Assembly: GCA_019637295.1 (NCBI GenBank)
Contig: JAHBVX010000006.1
Coordinates: forward strand, 310,001 to 374,000
Reading direction: 5' to 3'
From: Polyangiaceae bacterium
GTDB taxonomy: Bacteria > Myxococcota_A > Polyangia > Polyangiales > Polyangiaceae
Length of the DNA stretch: 64,000 bases
The notes under the pieces are model-generated. The model was given only the letters and a program-made list of their open reading frames with translations, ran no database searches and was not told the DNA's origin. Below, one piece after another: positions 32,423 to 40,212 of the stretch (position 1 is the first letter of the stretch; the number at the start of each line of letters is the position of its first letter). The translations under genes were made by a program, and so were the position numbers.

Positions 32423-33277
32423 TCAGTACGCCACGCCCGAGTACGGGCACTTCTTCAGCATGTCGGCGTCACAGGGGGACGGCGGCATGCAGTTGAACCA
32501 CTCCGGGCAAGCCGTGCTCTGCTCGCAGCCGCAGCCACAGCTGTTCGAGAAGGGGGTGGTGTGCTCTGGGCAGGTGTACTTGACGGCCGCGCACTGGGCC
32601 GGGCTGGTCGCGACGTAGTCCCGCCACCACTCCTTGTTGGGATCGCACATGCAGCCAATCTTGGTGCAGCCCACGCCTTGCTCCGTACACGTGCAGGTGT
32701 TGCAGCCGTCGAGCGCGGGGAAGGACTCACCCGGCTTGTAGGTCTTGCCGGCGTAGGTGCAGGTCTTCTCGCAGTACAGCAGCGTGCACGCGACGAACCC
32801 GTCACTCTGGCAGGTGCAGCTGTTGCAGCCGTCGCCGGCGGGGAAGCTGGCGCCCACCGGGTACGGCTTGCCCTCGTGCACGCAGCCCGTGCAGGCGAGC
32901 TCCGTGCAGCCCACGGCGCCCGAGTCCGTGCACTCGCAGGTGTTGCAGCCGTCCGTCGCGGGGAACTTGTCACCAGCCTGATACGTCTTTCCGTCGTAGA
33001 GGCACTCTGCAGGACCGCACCACATGGCGGTGCAAGCGACGAGGCCGTCCGAGCCACACGAGCACGTATTGCAGTCCAGACTGAACGACTCGCCAGCCTT
33101 GTAGGTCTTGCCATTGAACTCGCAGGTGACGCCTCCAGCGCCGCCGCTGCCCGCGGATCCGCCGCTTCCGTCCGTCTCGGTAGTGGAGCCGCCGCACGCG
33201 CCGAGCAGCGCGAAGAGCGCGAACAGCACCGTGCCCAAGAGCCACTTCCCCGTCGAGCCTGATCGTCGTGTCGCCAT
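32423..33277 (-). CDS. Lipoprotein with repeated cysteine modules (VWC/pacifastin-like)
   Basis: 284 residues from ATG at 33277; an ATG at 33298 would add seven. A lipoprotein signal (ALFALLGAC) and Gly/Ser linker are followed by five copies of a module of ~40 residues: C-x-[YFH]-x-G-K-x-Y-x-x-G-x-x-F, then CNTCTC or close variant, then G-x-x-[AG]CT-x-x-x-C. The CN-x-C-x-C...G...CT-x3-C pattern is that of pacifastin-type protease inhibitors and VWC domains. A final unit (~215-284) has paired Cys in CGCGCEQS. The modules are probably disulphide-bonded and exposed. Inhibitor or adhesion function is inference. Confidence 0.85.
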   Translation of the reverse strand: MATRRSGSTGKWLLGTVLFALFALLGACGGSTTETDGSGGSAGSGGAGGVTCEFNGKTYKAGESFSLDCNTCSCGSDGLVACTAMWCGPAECLYDGKTYQAGDKFPATDGCNTCECTDSGAVGCTELACTGCVHEGKPYPVGASFPAGDGCNSCTCQSDGFVACTLLYCEKTCTYAGKTYKPGESFPALDGCNTCTCTEQGVGCTKIGCMCDPNKEWWRDYVATSPAQCAAVKYTCPEHTTPFSNSCGCGCEQSTACPEWFNCMPPSPCDADMLKKCPYSGVAY

Positions 33278-33352
33278 CTGCGCCGTCTCCTGTGCCAATG
33301 CCAGCCCTTGACTGCTGCAACTAACCCAATTCCAAGATCCGTGCCACTCGGC

Positions 33353-35062
33353 TCAGCGCCTGTACAGCCAGGCCACCGGCACGCCGTGGTGGGTGCCCAC
33401 GTGTGCGGGGGAGCTCGTCCCGTAGGCCATCCAGATCTGCTGCTCCACGCGCCTCATGTGAGGTTCGTGGTGGTACACGGCGAGGTCGCTCGACTCGATG
33501 GTCCAGGCCCCGCGCAGATCCGAGCGCAGCATGCCGTCAGCCACCATCTGGGTCCAGCTCTGCATCGCGGTGTCGTGTATGAACACCGGAGCCCCCGGGC
33601 GCGCGTGCTCGTTCAGGTACGGGGCGAGCGAGCCGGTGGTGTAGCCCCAGAAGGTGCGGTTGAGTCCGAGGGTGGCGGCGCCGGGCGCGCCGCCGACCAG
33701 CGGCGTGTAGGCGCTGAGGCCCCAGGGATGCGACTCGAGGGTGATGGCTACTGGCGCCGCGAGCACGGTCGCGGCCAGGCCGCCCCCGAGCGCGTGCCGC
33801 AGAATCCCCTGCCGCAACCGAGGCCACGAACGGCTGGCGTGCTCGCAGACCAACACGAACGCCCGCGCGGCGAACAGACACATGAACGGGTAGGCCGTGA
33901 TCCAGTGCTTCGTGCCGCCGAAGATGGGCGTGTTCTTCGAGAACCACGGCGCGTAGCTGGTCAAGATGCAGAGCAGCCAGAGCACGTCGGTGCTGAAGCG
34001 CTGGCGCTCTTCGGCGCTGGCGGCCGCTCGCGGCGGCAGGCTGCGCCCGAGCCAGCCGAGCACGCGCTGACTCCACGAGCGATAGCGAGTCGAGAGCGCG
34101 TGCCGCGCCGAGTCCGAGAGCCCCACCACGAAGAGGAGCAGGGTCACCGCGGGCACCGTCGCGGCGGTCATCAGCCACGCGTAGCCGCGCGGCATGGGCG
34201 GCTTCCAGTAGGTGCGCCCGAGAAACTCCATGTTGTAGTAGTCGTGGTGCATGTGGAACGCGACGTAGGCGGCGAGGCGCCGCCCGGTGTCGTTCCAGAT
34301 CCACGGCCACAGCAGGTAGAACACTACCGGCCCGATGGTGGCCATGGTGAGCAAGGAGGTCGGTATGGCCAAGCGGCCGACGCGGAAGTTGCGCCACAGG
34401 CCCTGGCCCCGCACGATGACGAACCACGCCACCAGCGCCGGCGGCAACAGCCACGAGTTGTGCTTCGTGTTCAGCAGCAGGCCGTACAGCACACCGGTCA
34501 AGATCGCCCAGCCCAGGCCACGATCGAGCGAGCGCCAGAACGCGTAGCTCGTGAGCAGCCACATCGCCGCGACGGGCAGGTCGAAGCAGTCGAGGTGCGC
34601 GTGGTAGAAGATGCGCGGCATCATCGCGAACAGCACCGCAGCCACGACGCCGGCGAGTCGTCCGATGGCGCGCGCGCCCCACGCGTACGTGACGGCTACC
34701 GCGACCCCACTGAGCACCATGCCGGGGAAGCGGAACGCGGTGCCGGCCGTCGAGAACCACTGCCACTTCTCGAACAGGTAGCGATGCGAGAGGGCGAACA
34801 GCGTCTTGATCAGCGCCGGGTGTTCGTTGTTCGCCGCCCAGTAGCGATCGACGACCGCGCGCGACAGCGCCTCCTGCGGATTGGTCAGCAGGATGTCGAG
34901 CCACGCGCCGTAGCTGCGGGCCGCCTGAAAGTAGAAACCCTCGTCGCGGGCGTAGCCGAGGTCCGAGCTGGTCCCGAGCAGCAGCGCGACGTACGCCACG
35001 CCGAGCCCCAGCGCGATGGCGGGATCGGCGGCGCGGGCGAGCAGGCGGCCGGGGACGCTCAT
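33353..35062 (-). CDS. GT-C (ArnT/PMT-like, GT39-type) membrane glycosyltransferase
   Basis: 569 residues with ~11 membrane helices. The first periplasmic loop holds RDEGFYFQAARSYG, the Asp-Glu motif that binds metal and polyprenyl-phosphate sugar in this superfamily; EHPALIKTLFAL and LLLNTKHNSWLLPPA follow as in ArnT-like enzymes. A soluble C-terminal part (~500-569) lies on the periplasmic side. It should transfer a sugar from a lipid-phosphate donor to a lipid, protein or glycan in the periplasm; the acceptor is unknown. ATG 35062 is chosen because the residues before it in a longer frame are not membrane-like. It is separated from the upstream gene by the hairpin array. Confidence 0.88.
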   Translation of the reverse strand: MSVPGRLLARAADPAIALGLGVAYVALLLGTSSDLGYARDEGFYFQAARSYGAWLDILLTNPQEALSRAVVDRYWAANNEHPALIKTLFALSHRYLFEKWQWFSTAGTAFRFPGMVLSGVAVAVTYAWGARAIGRLAGVVAAVLFAMMPRIFYHAHLDCFDLPVAAMWLLTSYAFWRSLDRGLGWAILTGVLYGLLLNTKHNSWLLPPALVAWFVIVRGQGLWRNFRVGRLAIPTSLLTMATIGPVVFYLLWPWIWNDTGRRLAAYVAFHMHHDYYNMEFLGRTYWKPPMPRGYAWLMTAATVPAVTLLLFVVGLSDSARHALSTRYRSWSQRVLGWLGRSLPPRAAASAEERQRFSTDVLWLLCILTSYAPWFSKNTPIFGGTKHWITAYPFMCLFAARAFVLVCEHASRSWPRLRQGILRHALGGGLAATVLAAPVAITLESHPWGLSAYTPLVGGAPGAATLGLNRTFWGYTTGSLAPYLNEHARPGAPVFIHDTAMQSWTQMVADGMLRSDLRGAWTIESSDLAVYHHEPHMRRVEQQIWMAYGTSSPAHVGTHHGVPVAWLYRR

Positions 35063-35303
35063 TCGGGCGCGAGACTGCCACAAGGCGCCCCGGGAGAGGC
35101 CCTCGGACCGGCGTAGGCCCGCAAGCCGGGCGGGGTTCTTGCTCCATCGCTCGCGTGATCGTTCAGATCTGAAATTACCCCCAGAGAACTGCCTGTAAGT
35201 TACTGTAATTAAAAGGGCACTGCTGTGGCATGCCGGATGCAATGTAGGAGAGCGGCGGCGGCATAGGAGCCCCAGGCAACCGCCCCCGCCTGTTCAAACT
35301 ACG
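35063..35303. other. Non-coding stretch before the hairpin array
   Basis: No plausible gene was found. The first ~100 bases are the leader of the glycosyltransferase gene; 35162-35214 is AT-rich and carries short symmetric and repeated motifs described separately. The remaining ~85 bases up to the first hairpin are GC-rich and show no open frame of note. Confidence 0.6.
35162..35214. promoter_or_regulatory. AT-rich regulatory segment with palindrome and direct repeats
   Basis: This is the most AT-rich stretch of the neighbourhood. TTCAGATCTGAA at 35162-35173 is a perfect 12-bp palindrome. CTGTAA occurs twice, starting at 35193 and 35203, ten bases apart (TTACAG on the minus strand), one helical turn, as seen at sites for dimeric regulators. 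It can serve the leftward glycosyltransferase gene (start 100 bases away) or a rightward transcript into the hairpin array. No canonical -10/-35 pair could be assigned. Confidence 0.45.
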
Positions 35304-35349
35304 CACGGCGCCCAAGCGCATCCCCCCTCCGCAAGGGCGCCGTGTTTTT
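35304..35349 (+). repeat. Hairpin unit 1
   Basis: Outer arms CACGGCGCCC (35304-35313) and GGGCGCCGTG (35335-35344) pair perfectly over ten bases. After a symmetric AA/AA internal loop, GCG pairs with CGC and closes the 11-base loop CATCCCCCCTC. Five T's follow (35345-35349), giving an intrinsic-terminator look. Confidence 0.85.
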
Positions 35350-35355
35350 CACTCC

Positions 35356-35401
35356 GCACTGCGGCCGAAGACGCATCCCCCCTCCGTCCCGGCCGTGGTG
35401 C
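35356..35401 (+). repeat. Hairpin unit 2
   Basis: Arms GCACTGCGGCC (35356-35366) and GGCCGTGGTGC (35391-35401) pair over eleven positions if two G-U wobbles are allowed. The inner stem GACG/CGTC closes the loop CATCCCCCCTC (35374-35384). The two wobbles make more sense for RNA than for DNA. This unit alone lacks a T tract. Confidence 0.8.
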
Positions 35402-35410
35402 CCTACTACC

Positions 35411-35463
35411 CCACGGCGGCCAACAGACGATCCCCCCTCCGTCCCGGCCGCCGTGGTTTTTTT
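35411..35463 (+). repeat. Hairpin unit 3
   Basis: Arms CCACGGCGGCC (35411-35421) and GGCCGCCGTGG (35446-35456) pair perfectly over eleven bases; the inner stem GACG/CGTC closes the ten-base loop ATCCCCCCTC. Seven T's follow at 35457-35463. Confidence 0.85.
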
Positions 35464-35467
35464 CCCG

Positions 35468-35519
35468 CACGGCAAGCTCGACGATCCCCCCTCCGTCGAG
35501 CTTGCCGTGTTCTTTTTTT
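35468..35519 (+). repeat. Hairpin unit 4
   Basis: A perfect 16-bp stem, CACGGCAAGCTCGACG (35468-35483) with CGTCGAGCTTGCCGTG (35494-35509), closes the loop ATCCCCCCTC without any internal loop. The run TTCTTTTTTT follows (35510-35519). This is the strongest terminator-like structure of the four and would end a rightward transcript. Confidence 0.88.
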
Positions 35520-35565
35520 GTCCTGACGACGCGGTGACGACGGTGCTCTGCGACCGCGCGCCCGC

Positions 35566-36498
35566 TCACTCGCGAACGCTCGCGGCGAAACAGAACACCT
35601 GCGCCTTGGGCGGCTCGGCGGTGATCGAGAACTGGACGTCCCCTCGCGCGCCCGGTGCGACGCCGGTCGGGTACTCGAAGCGAGACCAGGGGGTGCCCTC
35701 GGGGTGCTCGGCGCGTCCGATGCTCTGGCCCGCGACGCTGACCTCGACGGTGAAGTGCGCCCCGATGCCGTCGCGTCCCAGCACCCACGGTACCCCCGTG
35801 AAGCCCACGACCTTGTTGCCGAGGGGCACGTCGCGGTAGCGCAGCACGAGCGGGTCCGATCCCGCGGGGCTCGCCCAGATGCAGCGGCGAGCGCGATACT
35901 CCTCGCCGTCGATCACCGTGGCCCCCGCGAACGTGCTCGCGCAGGCGAAGCGCACCGCGGGGGCGGCCGGCGGACCACCGAGCCCGCCGGTCGTGACCCG
36001 CGCGCGATCGGTGTACTTGCACAGCTCGGTGCCCGAGAGCACGTCGGCGTGGGTCGGAGCGAGGGACGACACGAAGTCGAACAGCACGCGCTCGGGGCTC
36101 GGGTTCTCCAGCACCCGCAGCACGAACCTCCCTTGCTTCTGCGACGAGGCCTCACGCCACCCGCTCAGCTCGGGAGCACGCTGCCCGATGAGGCTGACCT
36201 CGATGGCGCGCTCCACTCGCGCGTCGTCGCTGCGCGCGATCTGGTCGAGCGGCATCAGCTCGTCACCAAAGGCGTGGCGCGCGAGCGGCTCGGCCCAGGC
36301 CGGCGCGGTGACGATGACCTCGCCCCCGGTGCGCAGCGCCGCCACCGCGGGCCGAAGATCCAGCCAGTCTTCGACGCTGGGCGGCCGGCGCGAGAAGTAG
36401 AAGTGCGCGCCGAGCTCCGCCAGCCCGACGATGGGCAACGCCAACCACAGGAGGGCCAAGCCTCTGCGGCGCGGAGTGGGAGGCTCGTCGGTGGACAT
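35566..36498 (-). CDS. Membrane-anchored hypothetical protein
   Basis: 310 residues. One N-terminal membrane helix (~13-33, LALLWLALPIVGLAELGAHF) anchors a periplasmic domain. The domain has TGGEVIVTAPAWAEPLARHA near residue 57, GRFVLRVLENPSP, two cysteines in the middle, and a strand-rich end (DGIGAHFTVEVSVAGQSIG, VQFSITAEPP) resembling galactose-binding-like or NPCBM-type sandwiches. It may accompany membrane glycosyltransferases, and the next leftward gene is one, 500 bases on. I cannot assign a family with confidence. Confidence 0.75.
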   Translation of the reverse strand: MSTDEPPTPRRRGLALLWLALPIVGLAELGAHFYFSRRPPSVEDWLDLRPAVAALRTGGEVIVTAPAWAEPLARHAFGDELMPLDQIARSDDARVERAIEVSLIGQRAPELSGWREASSQKQGRFVLRVLENPSPERVLFDFVSSLAPTHADVLSGTELCKYTDRARVTTGGLGGPPAAPAVRFACASTFAGATVIDGEEYRARRCIWASPAGSDPLVLRYRDVPLGNKVVGFTGVPWVLGRDGIGAHFTVEVSVAGQSIGRAEHPEGTPWSRFEYPTGVAPGARGDVQFSITAEPPKAQVFCFAASVRE

Positions 36499-37833: not shown

Positions 37834-38022
37834 CGGCTCGGCTGCTGTGAGGACGCTGTCCCAGGCTGCGGGTCCAGGCGCTGGCTGGTGCCGCAGTTCC
37901 GGCTGCATCCCCGCCGGTGCGCGCCGCCGTGCCCGCGTCGGGCCGGCCTAAACCGGCCACCGCTGTCAGCGACTTGCTCGGCGTAGTGCGTGCAGTATGG
38001 TCCCGCCCTTGGGAGCGCCAGC

Positions 38023-40212
38023 ATGAGCGAGCTTCAGCTTTCCGTCATTGCCCCTTGCTTCAACGAGGAGCTCAACATCCCCGAGCTCACGCGCCGCGTG
38101 CTCAGCGTGTTCGACCGGGGCCATCTGTCCGGCGAGCTCATCCTGGTGGACGACGGGTCATCGGATGGGACGCGGGCCGCCATCGAAGCGCAGGAGCGTG
38201 AACACCCGGGCCGCGTGGTTGGGCGCTTCCACCCGAAGAATCGCGGCATCGCCCACGGCTGGAAGACGGGCACCGCCGCCGCCCGCGCGCCCATCGTCGC
38301 GGTCATCGATGCGGATCTGCAGTACCAGCCCGAGGACCTCTTGCGGCTGTACGCGGAGCTGATGGAGCACAGCATCGACATCGTGCAGGGCTGGCGCAGC
38401 GCCGTCGGCCGTGAGCGCGGCACCCGCTACAACCTCAGCCGCGGCTTCAACGTCTTGCTCAACAAGACCTTCGGCATGGACCTGCAAGACAACAAGAGCG
38501 GGTTCGTGATGTGCGCCAAAGAGGTGATGGAGGACCTGCTCACCTACGACGGCAACTACTACTACTGGCAGTCCTTCATCATGGTGGCCGCCCACGCCAA
38601 GGGCTACGGCTACAAGCAGATCGAGACCCTGTTCGAGAACCGGCGCGCCGGGAAGAGCTTCCTGGACGGCGCTGCCTACCGCGCCGTGACGCGCTCCTTC
38701 GTGGATTTGGGCAAAGCCACCTGGGAGTACCGCATCAAGCCGCTGGTGCCGGACGTGAGCGAGCAGTTCCTGCGGCGCTACCCGGTGCTCGATCGCAGCA
38801 CCCCGCTGAGCGCCACTCGGCAGCTGGAGTGGAAGGCTTACCTGGCCACCTTCAACCAGACCCACTGGATGATCACCCGGGACGTCGAGCGCTACTACGA
38901 TGCGCTGCGCAAGACCCAGTGGCTCGCGCCGGCGCAGCTCCGGGAGCTGCAGGACGAGAAGCTCCGGCGACTGGTGCGTCACGCCTATCGCAACGTGCCC
39001 TACTACCGCAAGCGCATGCGCGAGGCGGGGCTGTCGCCGCACGACATCCGGGGTCAGGCAGATCTCCACAAACTGCCTTTCTTGACCAAGAGCGACGTGC
39101 GGGAGAACCTCTACTTCGACATCCTCAGCGAGAACCACGACAAGCGGCAGGTGCTGCGCATCGCCACTAGCGGCTCCACGGGTGAGCCCTTCGTGTGCTA
39201 CGCGGATCGCGCGCAGCTGGAGTTTCGCTGGGCCGCGACGCTGCGCTCGCAGGAGTGGACGGGCTATCAGTTCGGGGACCCGAGCGTGCGGCTGTGGCAC
39301 CAGACCCTGGGCATGTCCAAGAGCCAGGCCGCGCGGGAGATCCTCGACGCCAAGCTGACGCGCCGCAAGTTCATCCCCGTGTTCGAGATGAGCGACGACA
39401 AGCTGGACCGCATGGTGCGCGAGATCGCGGACTTCGAGCCCGTGTTGATGGACGGCTACGCCGAGGCGCTCGACTTCGTCGCTCACTATCTGAAGAACCA
39501 CGGCAACGTGTCGGTCCGTCCCAGGGCCATCATGTCCAGCGCGCAGACGCTGCCCGAGCCCAGTCGCAGGCTGATCGAGGAGGCCTTCGGCTGCAGGGTC
39601 TTCGACAAGTACGGCTCCCGTGAGTTCTCTGGCATTGCCTACGAGTGCGAGGCGCACACCGGGCACCACGTGGTGGGCGAGGGCTACATCCTCGAGGTGT
39701 TGCGCGATGGTCGCCCGGCCGCGCCCGGCGAGGTCGGCGAGGTCGTGATCACGGACCTGAACAACTTCTGTCTACCCTTCATCCGCTATCGCATCGGCGA
39801 CCTGGCGGTCGCCATGGACCCGAGCTTCGCGTGTCCGTGCGGTCGCGGCTTGCCCATGGTGGGGCGCATCGAGGGGCGCGTGCAGGCGGTCATCCAGGGC
39901 ACCTCCGGGCGCTGGGTGCCGGGCACCTTCTTCGCTCACTACCTCAAGGAGTTCGACCACGCGGTGGCGCGCTTCCAGGTGGTGCAAGAAGAGATCGGCG
40001 CCATGAGCTTTCGGGTGGTCAAGGGCGGACGCTACTCGGACGACGTGCTCGAGGAGATCCTCGACACCTTCCGCAAGTACTTGGGCCACGACATGGTGAT
40101 CGACGTCGAGTTCGTCGACAGCGTGGAGATGGTGCGCACGGGCAAGCGGCTGGCCAGCGTGTCGCGCGTCGAGGTCGACTTCCAGAAGCGCGCCCCGGGC
40201 GCGCCGAACTGA
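38023..40212 (+). CDS. Fusion of GT2 glycosyltransferase and PaaK/CapK-like adenylate-forming domain
   Basis: 729 residues. Residues 1-~230 are a dolichyl-phosphate-mannose-synthase-like GT2 domain: SVIAPCFNEELNIP, ELILVDDGSSDGT, AVIDADLQYQPEDL (the metal-binding DAD), and YNLSRGFNVLLNKTFGMDLQ. Residues ~265-729 are a PaaK/CapK adenylating domain: ATSGSTGEPFV (phosphate loop), DKYGSREFSGIAYEC, PFIRYRIGDLA and a late GRIEGR. ATG 38023 has a GGGAGC site 10 bases upstream; an earlier ATG at 37990 adds 11 residues. Both active sites look complete. The protein probably acts on a lipid-linked or polymer glycan, activating an acyl substrate while transferring sugar. Confidence 0.9.
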   Translation: MSELQLSVIAPCFNEELNIPELTRRVLSVFDRGHLSGELILVDDGSSDGTRAAIEAQEREHPGRVVGRFHPKNRGIAHGWKTGTAAARAPIVAVIDADLQYQPEDLLRLYAELMEHSIDIVQGWRSAVGRERGTRYNLSRGFNVLLNKTFGMDLQDNKSGFVMCAKEVMEDLLTYDGNYYYWQSFIMVAAHAKGYGYKQIETLFENRRAGKSFLDGAAYRAVTRSFVDLGKATWEYRIKPLVPDVSEQFLRRYPVLDRSTPLSATRQLEWKAYLATFNQTHWMITRDVERYYDALRKTQWLAPAQLRELQDEKLRRLVRHAYRNVPYYRKRMREAGLSPHDIRGQADLHKLPFLTKSDVRENLYFDILSENHDKRQVLRIATSGSTGEPFVCYADRAQLEFRWAATLRSQEWTGYQFGDPSVRLWHQTLGMSKSQAAREILDAKLTRRKFIPVFEMSDDKLDRMVREIADFEPVLMDGYAEALDFVAHYLKNHGNVSVRPRAIMSSAQTLPEPSRRLIEEAFGCRVFDKYGSREFSGIAYECEAHTGHHVVGEGYILEVLRDGRPAAPGEVGEVVITDLNNFCLPFIRYRIGDLAVAMDPSFACPCGRGLPMVGRIEGRVQAVIQGTSGRWVPGTFFAHYLKEFDHAVARFQVVQEEIGAMSFRVVKGGRYSDDVLEEILDTFRKYLGHDMVIDVEFVDSVEMVRTGKRLASVSRVEVDFQKRAPGAPN

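Follow-up and report, generated by a model that had tools for sequence, protein, structure and literature searches.

The array and its neighborhood

The window, i.e., the whole 64,000-nt stretch of Polyangiaceae DNA that was analyzed, carries four hairpins in a row on the + strand (35303-35510), as confirmed by sequence reading and by folding. The array is intergenic and is flanked by a PMT_2 membrane protein gene and a gene without a Pfam match (Table 1). The first-pass annotation of this DNA had described a hairpin recurring every 54-55 bases, and the starts of consecutive loops are indeed 55, 55 and 54 nt apart. Its further claims of two G-U wobbles within the paired stem of unit 2, a constant loop and T tracts on the + strand after three units were also borne out, since the fold contains both wobbles, the loop core ATCCCCCCTCCG is the same in all four units and the T tracts follow units 1, 3 and 4.

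Table 1. Features of the array locus and of the tandem genes in genome G032
Feature	Position	Strand	Description	Basis
PMT_2 membrane protein gene	33353-35062	-	Reads away from the array; outside the RNA	Pfam PF13231, E 4e-10
Palindrome GTTCAGATCTGAAA	35161-35174	+	TTKCAN4TGMAA with 1 mismatch; putative site of a PxrR-type enhancer-binding protein	
Sigma-54 (RpoN) -24/-12 promoter-like element TGGCATGCCGGATGCA	35226-35241	+	GG-N10-GC	10/12 consensus positions
Predicted transcription start	35252	+	12 nt after the -12 base	Promoter geometry
5′ leader hairpin	35254-35290	+		Fold
Unit 1 hairpin	35303-35345	+	Loop CATCCCCCCTC 35319-35329; T tract 35345-35349	Fold
Unit 2 hairpin	35356-35401	+	Loop 35374-35384; two G-U pairs; no T tract	Fold
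Unit 3 hairpin	35411-35456	+	Loop 35430-35439; T tract 35457-35463	Fold
Unit 4 hairpin	35467-35510	+	17 bp stem; loop 35484-35493; T tract 35513-35519	Fold
Gene without Pfam match	35566-36498	-	Convergent with the array; outside the RNA	
G032 tandem genes	L025 6075-9581 = G032:C1:9574074-9577580	-		

The loop core ATCCCCCCTCCG occurs at 4 sites in the 7.65-Mb genome, all of them in the array and on one strand, and the reversed-pattern control at none; the shorter CCCCCCTCC is unremarkable by itself (61 genome sites versus 75 for the control). Folding energies of units 1 to 4 were -26.5, -25.6, -27.9 and -32.8 kcal/mol, with unit 4 being the most stable. The 221-nt + strand folded at -116.1 kcal/mol (z = -13.7), a value equaled by 0 of 200 shuffles, and the fold of the - strand of the array was weaker (z = -9.35). 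A simple terminator scan, with a limit of 8 for the loop that all units exceed, flagged none of them. The leader hairpin is also present in all 8 of the folded relatives with the same layout.

Two other readings of the locus were rejected. A + strand open reading frame (35342-35839) runs across the array, but the repeat spacing of 55, 55 and 54 nt does not keep to its frame, and a leader of a downstream gene is not compatible with the convergent orientation of the next gene.

Covariation and relatives of the array

The first-pass annotation had proposed selection on RNA structure plus loop and a covariance-model search of related genomes. This search was run, and homologous arrays with covarying stems were found. 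Model R1, built from the window's four units, matched 12 of 59 genomes at E 0.01, its own genome included, and model R2, built from 26 units, had matches at E 0.001 in 33 of the 108 genomes, or 19 of the 48 genera, from the window's family. Of 377 genomes sampled from the phylum, 13 were matched by R2, three of them from outside the window's family; two of the three (G196 and G231) carry paired C-loop hairpins plus the sigma-54-like promoter, and the third (G240) is a plain terminator by eye. Alignment A3 comprises 26 units (24 distinct) from 10 loci in 9 genomes, among them that of the window. Both partners vary at 10 of its 11 stem pairs, and the paired fraction of cells is 99.6%, a level that none of 500 shuffles reached and that fell to 25-53% in slid controls, although A3 leans towards the model's structure because it was fitted to it and its other loci were picked because they matched. 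The covariation at 10 of 11 pairs supports the proposed selection.

The number of C-loop hairpins per gene ranges from one to six in the relatives: one at many loci, two in L006, L007 and L009, five in L008 and six, each an R2 match, in L040. In G032, nine C-loop genes follow one another in tandem at steps of 383 to 572 bp with two C-run hairpins each (Table 1), the C-run being 8 to 11 long and differing between copies; 8 of the 9 have a TGGCA-type promoter 49-50 nt ahead of the first C-run. In four other genomes (L026, L027, L028 and L029), arrays lie near homologs of both genes that flank the window's array, a position common to the window and these loci. There the homolog of the gene without a Pfam match adjoins PMT_2 and the array follows, whereas in the window the array is between the two.

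For the counts given below, each array was counted once in a table of 37 loci, which are not independent because several share a genus (G014, G067, G068) or a genome (two each in G014, G033 and G067). The inspection covered matches with an assigned locus, so that other R2 matches, e.g., five of six in G085, fall outside it. Four matches were left out of the table: the weak R1 matches L012, L014 and L016, whose genomes (G034, G043 and G030) gave no R2 match where searched, and the R2 match L059, which is a plain terminator by eye after a thioredoxin-like gene.

Promoter-like element and palindrome upstream of the array

Promoters were scored on the 12 positions of the sigma-54 consensus TGGCACGN4TTGCW, with GG and GC obligatory. 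The element of the window starts 77 nt and ends 61 nt before unit 1, with the leader hairpin in between, and the palindrome starts 65 nt ahead of the promoter start. A sigma-70 scan of the same locus found no promoter. The sigma-54-like promoter and the upstream palindrome, as read from the sequence, support a rightward RNA, the direction favored by the first-pass annotation.

At 34 of the 37 loci, including the window, a sigma-54-like site of at least 9/12 lies in the correct orientation no more than 330 nt upstream, and random 330-nt windows reach this score in 12%. The three loci with no promoter within 330 nt are L040, L056 and L060; L040 has a sigma-54-like promoter further upstream than that. 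L056 (1501-1553) and L060 (1501-1554), both from genus g15, are C-run terminator-like hairpins with a sigma-70-like TTGCAC-N17-TGCTAT, not sigma-54.

The palindrome TTKCAN4TGMAA, allowing one mismatch, occurs in the 180 nt upstream of the promoter at 28 of the 34 promoter-bearing loci (0.26 expected by mononucleotide shuffle) and is absent at 6; the motif was recorded from C-loop loci before any pxr locus was fetched, and this exact counting form was fixed after the pxr sequences were known. At 27 of the 28 loci, a copy starts at -64 to -67 or at -55 to -57 from the promoter, two positions that differ by one helical turn. In relatives with a single hairpin, the promoter starts 27-29 nt before the hairpin, which places the start site near the hairpin base, and the RNA would therefore be little beyond one C-loop terminator.

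A composite pattern consisting of palindrome and promoter only was searched in 25 chosen genomes, most of which have R1 or R2 matches. It gave 18 sites in 15 of the 25 genomes, compared with 1 for the reversed pattern, and the single site in the whole genome of the window (35162-35241) is that of the array. A C-run of at least six follows within 255 nt at 12 of the 18 sites, 9 of which were already known through the hairpin search. The 3 new ones, L113, L116 and L125, have R2 scores of 24.2, 29.3 and 35.5 bits, and the C-run background is high at two of them (0.42 of random windows for L113 and 0.35 for L125). The other six of the 18 sites lack a following C-run of six. Among these, L122 is matched by R2 at 29.1 bits and its C-rich loop contains shorter runs, and visual inspection suggests chance matches in coding DNA for L112, L115 and L123. 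The strict pattern had no site in 10 of the 25 genomes, including the RNA-positive G008 and G033, in which the palindromes depart from it.

The remaining two sites, L128 and L129 (G122 and G124, genus g20), have the palindrome and promoter before a structured RNA that has no C-run but a long hairpin rich in GC; this may be a second class of RNA in the same regulon.

Comparison with Pxr

Pxr, of the pxrK-pxrR-pxr system of Myxococcus and relatives, is an sRNA that blocks fruiting-body development. Whitworth and Swain are said to have surveyed the non-coding RNAs of M. xanthus in 2020, and their list may include related RNAs. The pxr gene is reported to have a sigma-54 promoter and to lie beside the gene of an activator, pxrR/nla19 (PMC5568312, PMC5684412), and Pxr function is lost when C is changed to A in the SL1 loop (PMC5684412). 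In Cystobacter, several Pxr paralogs are described within one intergenic region (PMC5568312). Pxr is described as having arisen within Cystobacterineae (PMC11928866, PMC8538405), and its direct targets are called unknown in one of these reports (PMC11928866).

A pattern scan yielded 13 pxr loci, M. xanthus included. A TGGCACG-type promoter scoring 11/12 is present in 12 of the 13, the sequence of L081 ending at that point, and the C7 loop GGTTCCCCCCCACC is present in SL1 of all 13. The palindrome was found at 12 of 12 pxr loci in three copies each (0.21 loci expected), at about -153, -111 and -92, or at -147, -121 and -101 in Hyalangium. Two SL1 patterns with a six-C run gave no match in the 377 genomes or in the named genome collection because the real pxr loop has seven C, a zero that is uninformative on the distribution of pxr.

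The window array thus resembles pxr in its apparent sigma-54 promoter, in the upstream palindrome (one copy with 1 mismatch compared with three at pxr loci), in a PxrR-type activator encoded in the same genome, in the C-run hairpin loop, which is essential in Pxr, and in the multiple copies in some genera. In contrast, pxr has one C-loop hairpin (SL1) and two other stem-loops, whereas the window has four hairpins with identical loops, three of them with T tracts; pxr is directly downstream of pxrR, whereas the array is on contig C22 and the PxrR ortholog on C19. In addition, none of 10 pxr loci was matched significantly by R2 (best 13.9 bits, E 0.87). Because hairpin sequence and gene position both differ, the array is no ortholog of pxr; it is a Pxr-like RNA candidate, probably controlled in the same manner. 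The first-pass annotation knew of no such tandem family in myxobacteria. For the window's family, no report of such RNAs was among the titles and abstract starts listed for the open-access literature, but the annotation overlooks Pxr, a sigma-54-driven C-run sRNA with Cystobacter paralogs that was already known.

One locus of the scan, L069, comes from a record titled Comamonas sp. that contains pxr together with a PxrR sharing 97% identity with the M. xanthus protein, and it is probably a mislabelled myxobacterial genome.

Orthologs of PxrR

With M. xanthus PxrR as the query, one outstanding match of 449 to 486 bits was obtained in 16 of 18 genomes (next best at most 402), and the ortholog in the window's genome scored 480 bits versus 385 for the runner-up. 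The 16 matches group with three PxrR proteins, from Myxococcus, Pyxidicoccus and Hyalangium, in a single clade (support 100/99), and TTLWRKM in the helix-turn-helix is found in 19 of 19 PxrR orthologs and in 0 of 14 next-best paralogs. A PxrR match is present in 95 of the 108 genomes of the window's family. Its presence in 31 of 33 R2-positive and 64 of 75 R2-negative genomes is not significantly different (Fisher p = 0.34), perhaps because diverged RNAs escape R2. The RNA-positive G027 and G062 gave no PxrR match.

In G045, a C-loop hairpin with promoter is located directly downstream of the PxrR ortholog, and its palindrome is 111 nt before the promoter, the same as in pxr. The ortholog in the window's genome is unlinked to the array; its neighborhood contains no C-loop gene of the strict kind, and no kinase gene was seen beside it by eye.

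A palindrome and sigma-54-like promoter were also noted downstream of PxrR, read rightward, at L082 (3084-3220), L084 (3098-3233) and L087 (2906-3056), where they precede an apparent second response-regulator gene (by eye), and the PxrR regulon may thus include regulators. In G231 (L094, L057), which is placed in another class, a C-loop RNA of the matching kind occurs together with a PxrR that falls within the group formed by the window's family, which we ascribe to horizontal transfer or a binning error.

The loop and other C-loop RNAs

The core of the anti-Shine-Dalgarno sequence, CCTCC, is present in all four window loops and in 13 of the 26 A3 units, and it is missing from the 7 units of G032 (13 of 19 when these are set aside). 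A C-run of at least 5 is found in 25 of the 26 units, with a length range of 4 to 10, indicating that the conserved feature is the C-run and not an exact anti-Shine-Dalgarno sequence. A search of the assembly of the window's genome did not recover the 3′ end of the 16S rRNA. An energy comparison between the loops and ribosome-binding sites carries no weight here, as its start sites had been selected by Shine-Dalgarno strength, which makes it circular.

The sX13 RNA of Xanthomonas resembles the array in its C-rich loops, of which it has three (4C/5C), and differs in being a single 115-nt RNA from another lineage; we know of no sigma-54/PxrR control of it. Its loops are reported to repress mRNAs with G-rich motifs independently of Hfq, with control conferred by G-motifs on either side of the start and compensatory changes failing to restore it (PMC3771888). 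The cuckoo/CcsR/alpha-r14 RNAs of Alphaproteobacteria likewise consist of several hairpins with a constant C-rich loop and diverged stems, but their loop motif is CCUCCUCCC versus AUCCCCCCUC / ATCCCCCCTC in the window, and they belong to another phylum. In alpha-r14/NfeR1, redundant anti-Shine-Dalgarno loops silence targets by pairing with start regions (PMC10746234). CcsR is described as transcribed from an RpoHI/RpoHII promoter along with the gene of a DUF1127 protein (PMC10253847), unlike the window with its sigma-54-like site; a Pfam scan found no DUF1127 among the five proteins neighboring the array. Membership in an Rfam family was rejected, since no match attained the gathering score: g2, 6C, ar7 and Scr3202, which have C-rich hairpin loops as in the window array, scored 24.1, 19.1, 18.3 and 18.2 bits against 70, 47, 60 and 52. 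The array is therefore not a member of the CcsR/cuckoo RNAs, to whose C-rich loops the first-pass annotation had compared it, with another promoter, another loop and no Rfam match at the gathering score.

A search for Hfq gave no match in the window's genome and was positive in 5 of 14 control genomes, and M. xanthus is stated to be without hfq in a Pxr report (PMC5684412). From the analogy with sX13 and alpha-r14 and the lack of an Hfq match we infer translational repression at G-rich ribosome-binding sites, with which the loops, by that analogy, most likely pair. The binding of Shine-Dalgarno sequences envisaged in the first-pass annotation is thus plausible.

Proposed mechanism and alternatives

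We consider it fairly probable that the locus is a Pxr-like, PxrR/sigma-54-driven sRNA gene whose four C-rich loops block G-rich ribosome-binding sites. The gene would be a separate intergenic transcription unit, in which a PxrR-type enhancer-binding protein, presumably the PxrR ortholog of this genome, would sit on the palindrome and activate RNA polymerase with sigma-54 at the promoter-like element. The transcript would begin near the predicted start and proceed rightward via the leader hairpin and then the four hairpins, three of which are terminator-like, and read-through at the weaker terminators would give nested RNAs of about 98, 212 and 268 nt. Each hairpin would expose a single-stranded AUCCCCCCUC loop, and the loops would act as four copies of one site pairing with G-rich ribosome-binding regions of mRNAs (GGAGG, GGGG), blocking translation without Hfq. 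Tandem copies of the loop may increase dose or avidity.

The same sRNA gene and control could also serve an RNA whose C-run loops bind a protein, as a decoy or sponge, in place of ribosome-binding sites on mRNAs. The array's several identical loops are the layout of protein-sequestering RNAs, which also carry several identical loops per RNA, and the conserved feature is a C-run whose length varies (4 to 10 in A3), not a fixed complement. We nevertheless regard this as unlikely, as sX13 and alpha-r14 with similar loops base-pair with start regions, and we know of no poly-C-binding protein of myxobacteria. It also seems improbable that the loops of the same RNA pair with G-runs elsewhere, i.e., in coding regions, another sRNA or rRNA, and that the likeness to the anti-Shine-Dalgarno sequence is incidental. 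The control of sX13 targets by G-motifs on both sides of the start fits this possibility, as does the lack of CCTCC in half of the aligned units, but CCTCC is kept in every loop of the window and in 9 of the 15 other A3 units outside G032.

That the hairpins are serial transcription terminators between neighboring genes and nothing more is very unlikely. Although T tracts follow three of the four units on the + strand and the last unit is strongly terminator-like, unit 2 has no T tract, the array has its own promoter-like element at a suitable distance and the loop is exactly kept while the stems vary; in addition, transcripts of the single-hairpin relatives would start at the base of the hairpin and consist almost entirely of the terminator. 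A leftward RNA with GGA-bearing loops (GAGGGGGGAU) titrating CsrA is scarcely credible, since the promoter, palindrome spacing and T tracts indicate the rightward direction, the - strand fold is weaker and the 98.5% complete assembly gave no CsrA match in a search that was positive in 3 of 14 control genomes.

The promoter, palindrome and activator shared by C-loop RNAs across the window's family suggest a system older and wider than Cystobacterineae. We tentatively propose, as a possibility short of a firm expectation, that PxrR, sigma-54 and C-run RNAs constitute an ancient Myxococcota system tuning translation to the nutrient state, with its strength set by the number of identical loops (1-6 per RNA, and up to nine genes in a row), and that Pxr is a derived member with a single C-loop that directly captures G-rich ribosome-binding sites. 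The C-loop RNAs of the family supply many natural loop variants, in which the C-run is indicated as the working part, and two questions are made testable, namely what Pxr binds and what the multiplication of loops does.

Other genes near the array

Two further proteins encoded in the window were noted. The 740-aa protein at 37990-40212 (+) has an N-terminal family 2 glycosyltransferase, and its C-terminal half, in which there is no Pfam match, we take by eye to be like adenylate-forming enzymes; a close homolog of this protein (84%) adjoins the array in G001. The protein at 32423-33298 (-) matches the VWC and Pacifastin inhibitor families in each of three stretches; these domains are better known from animals.
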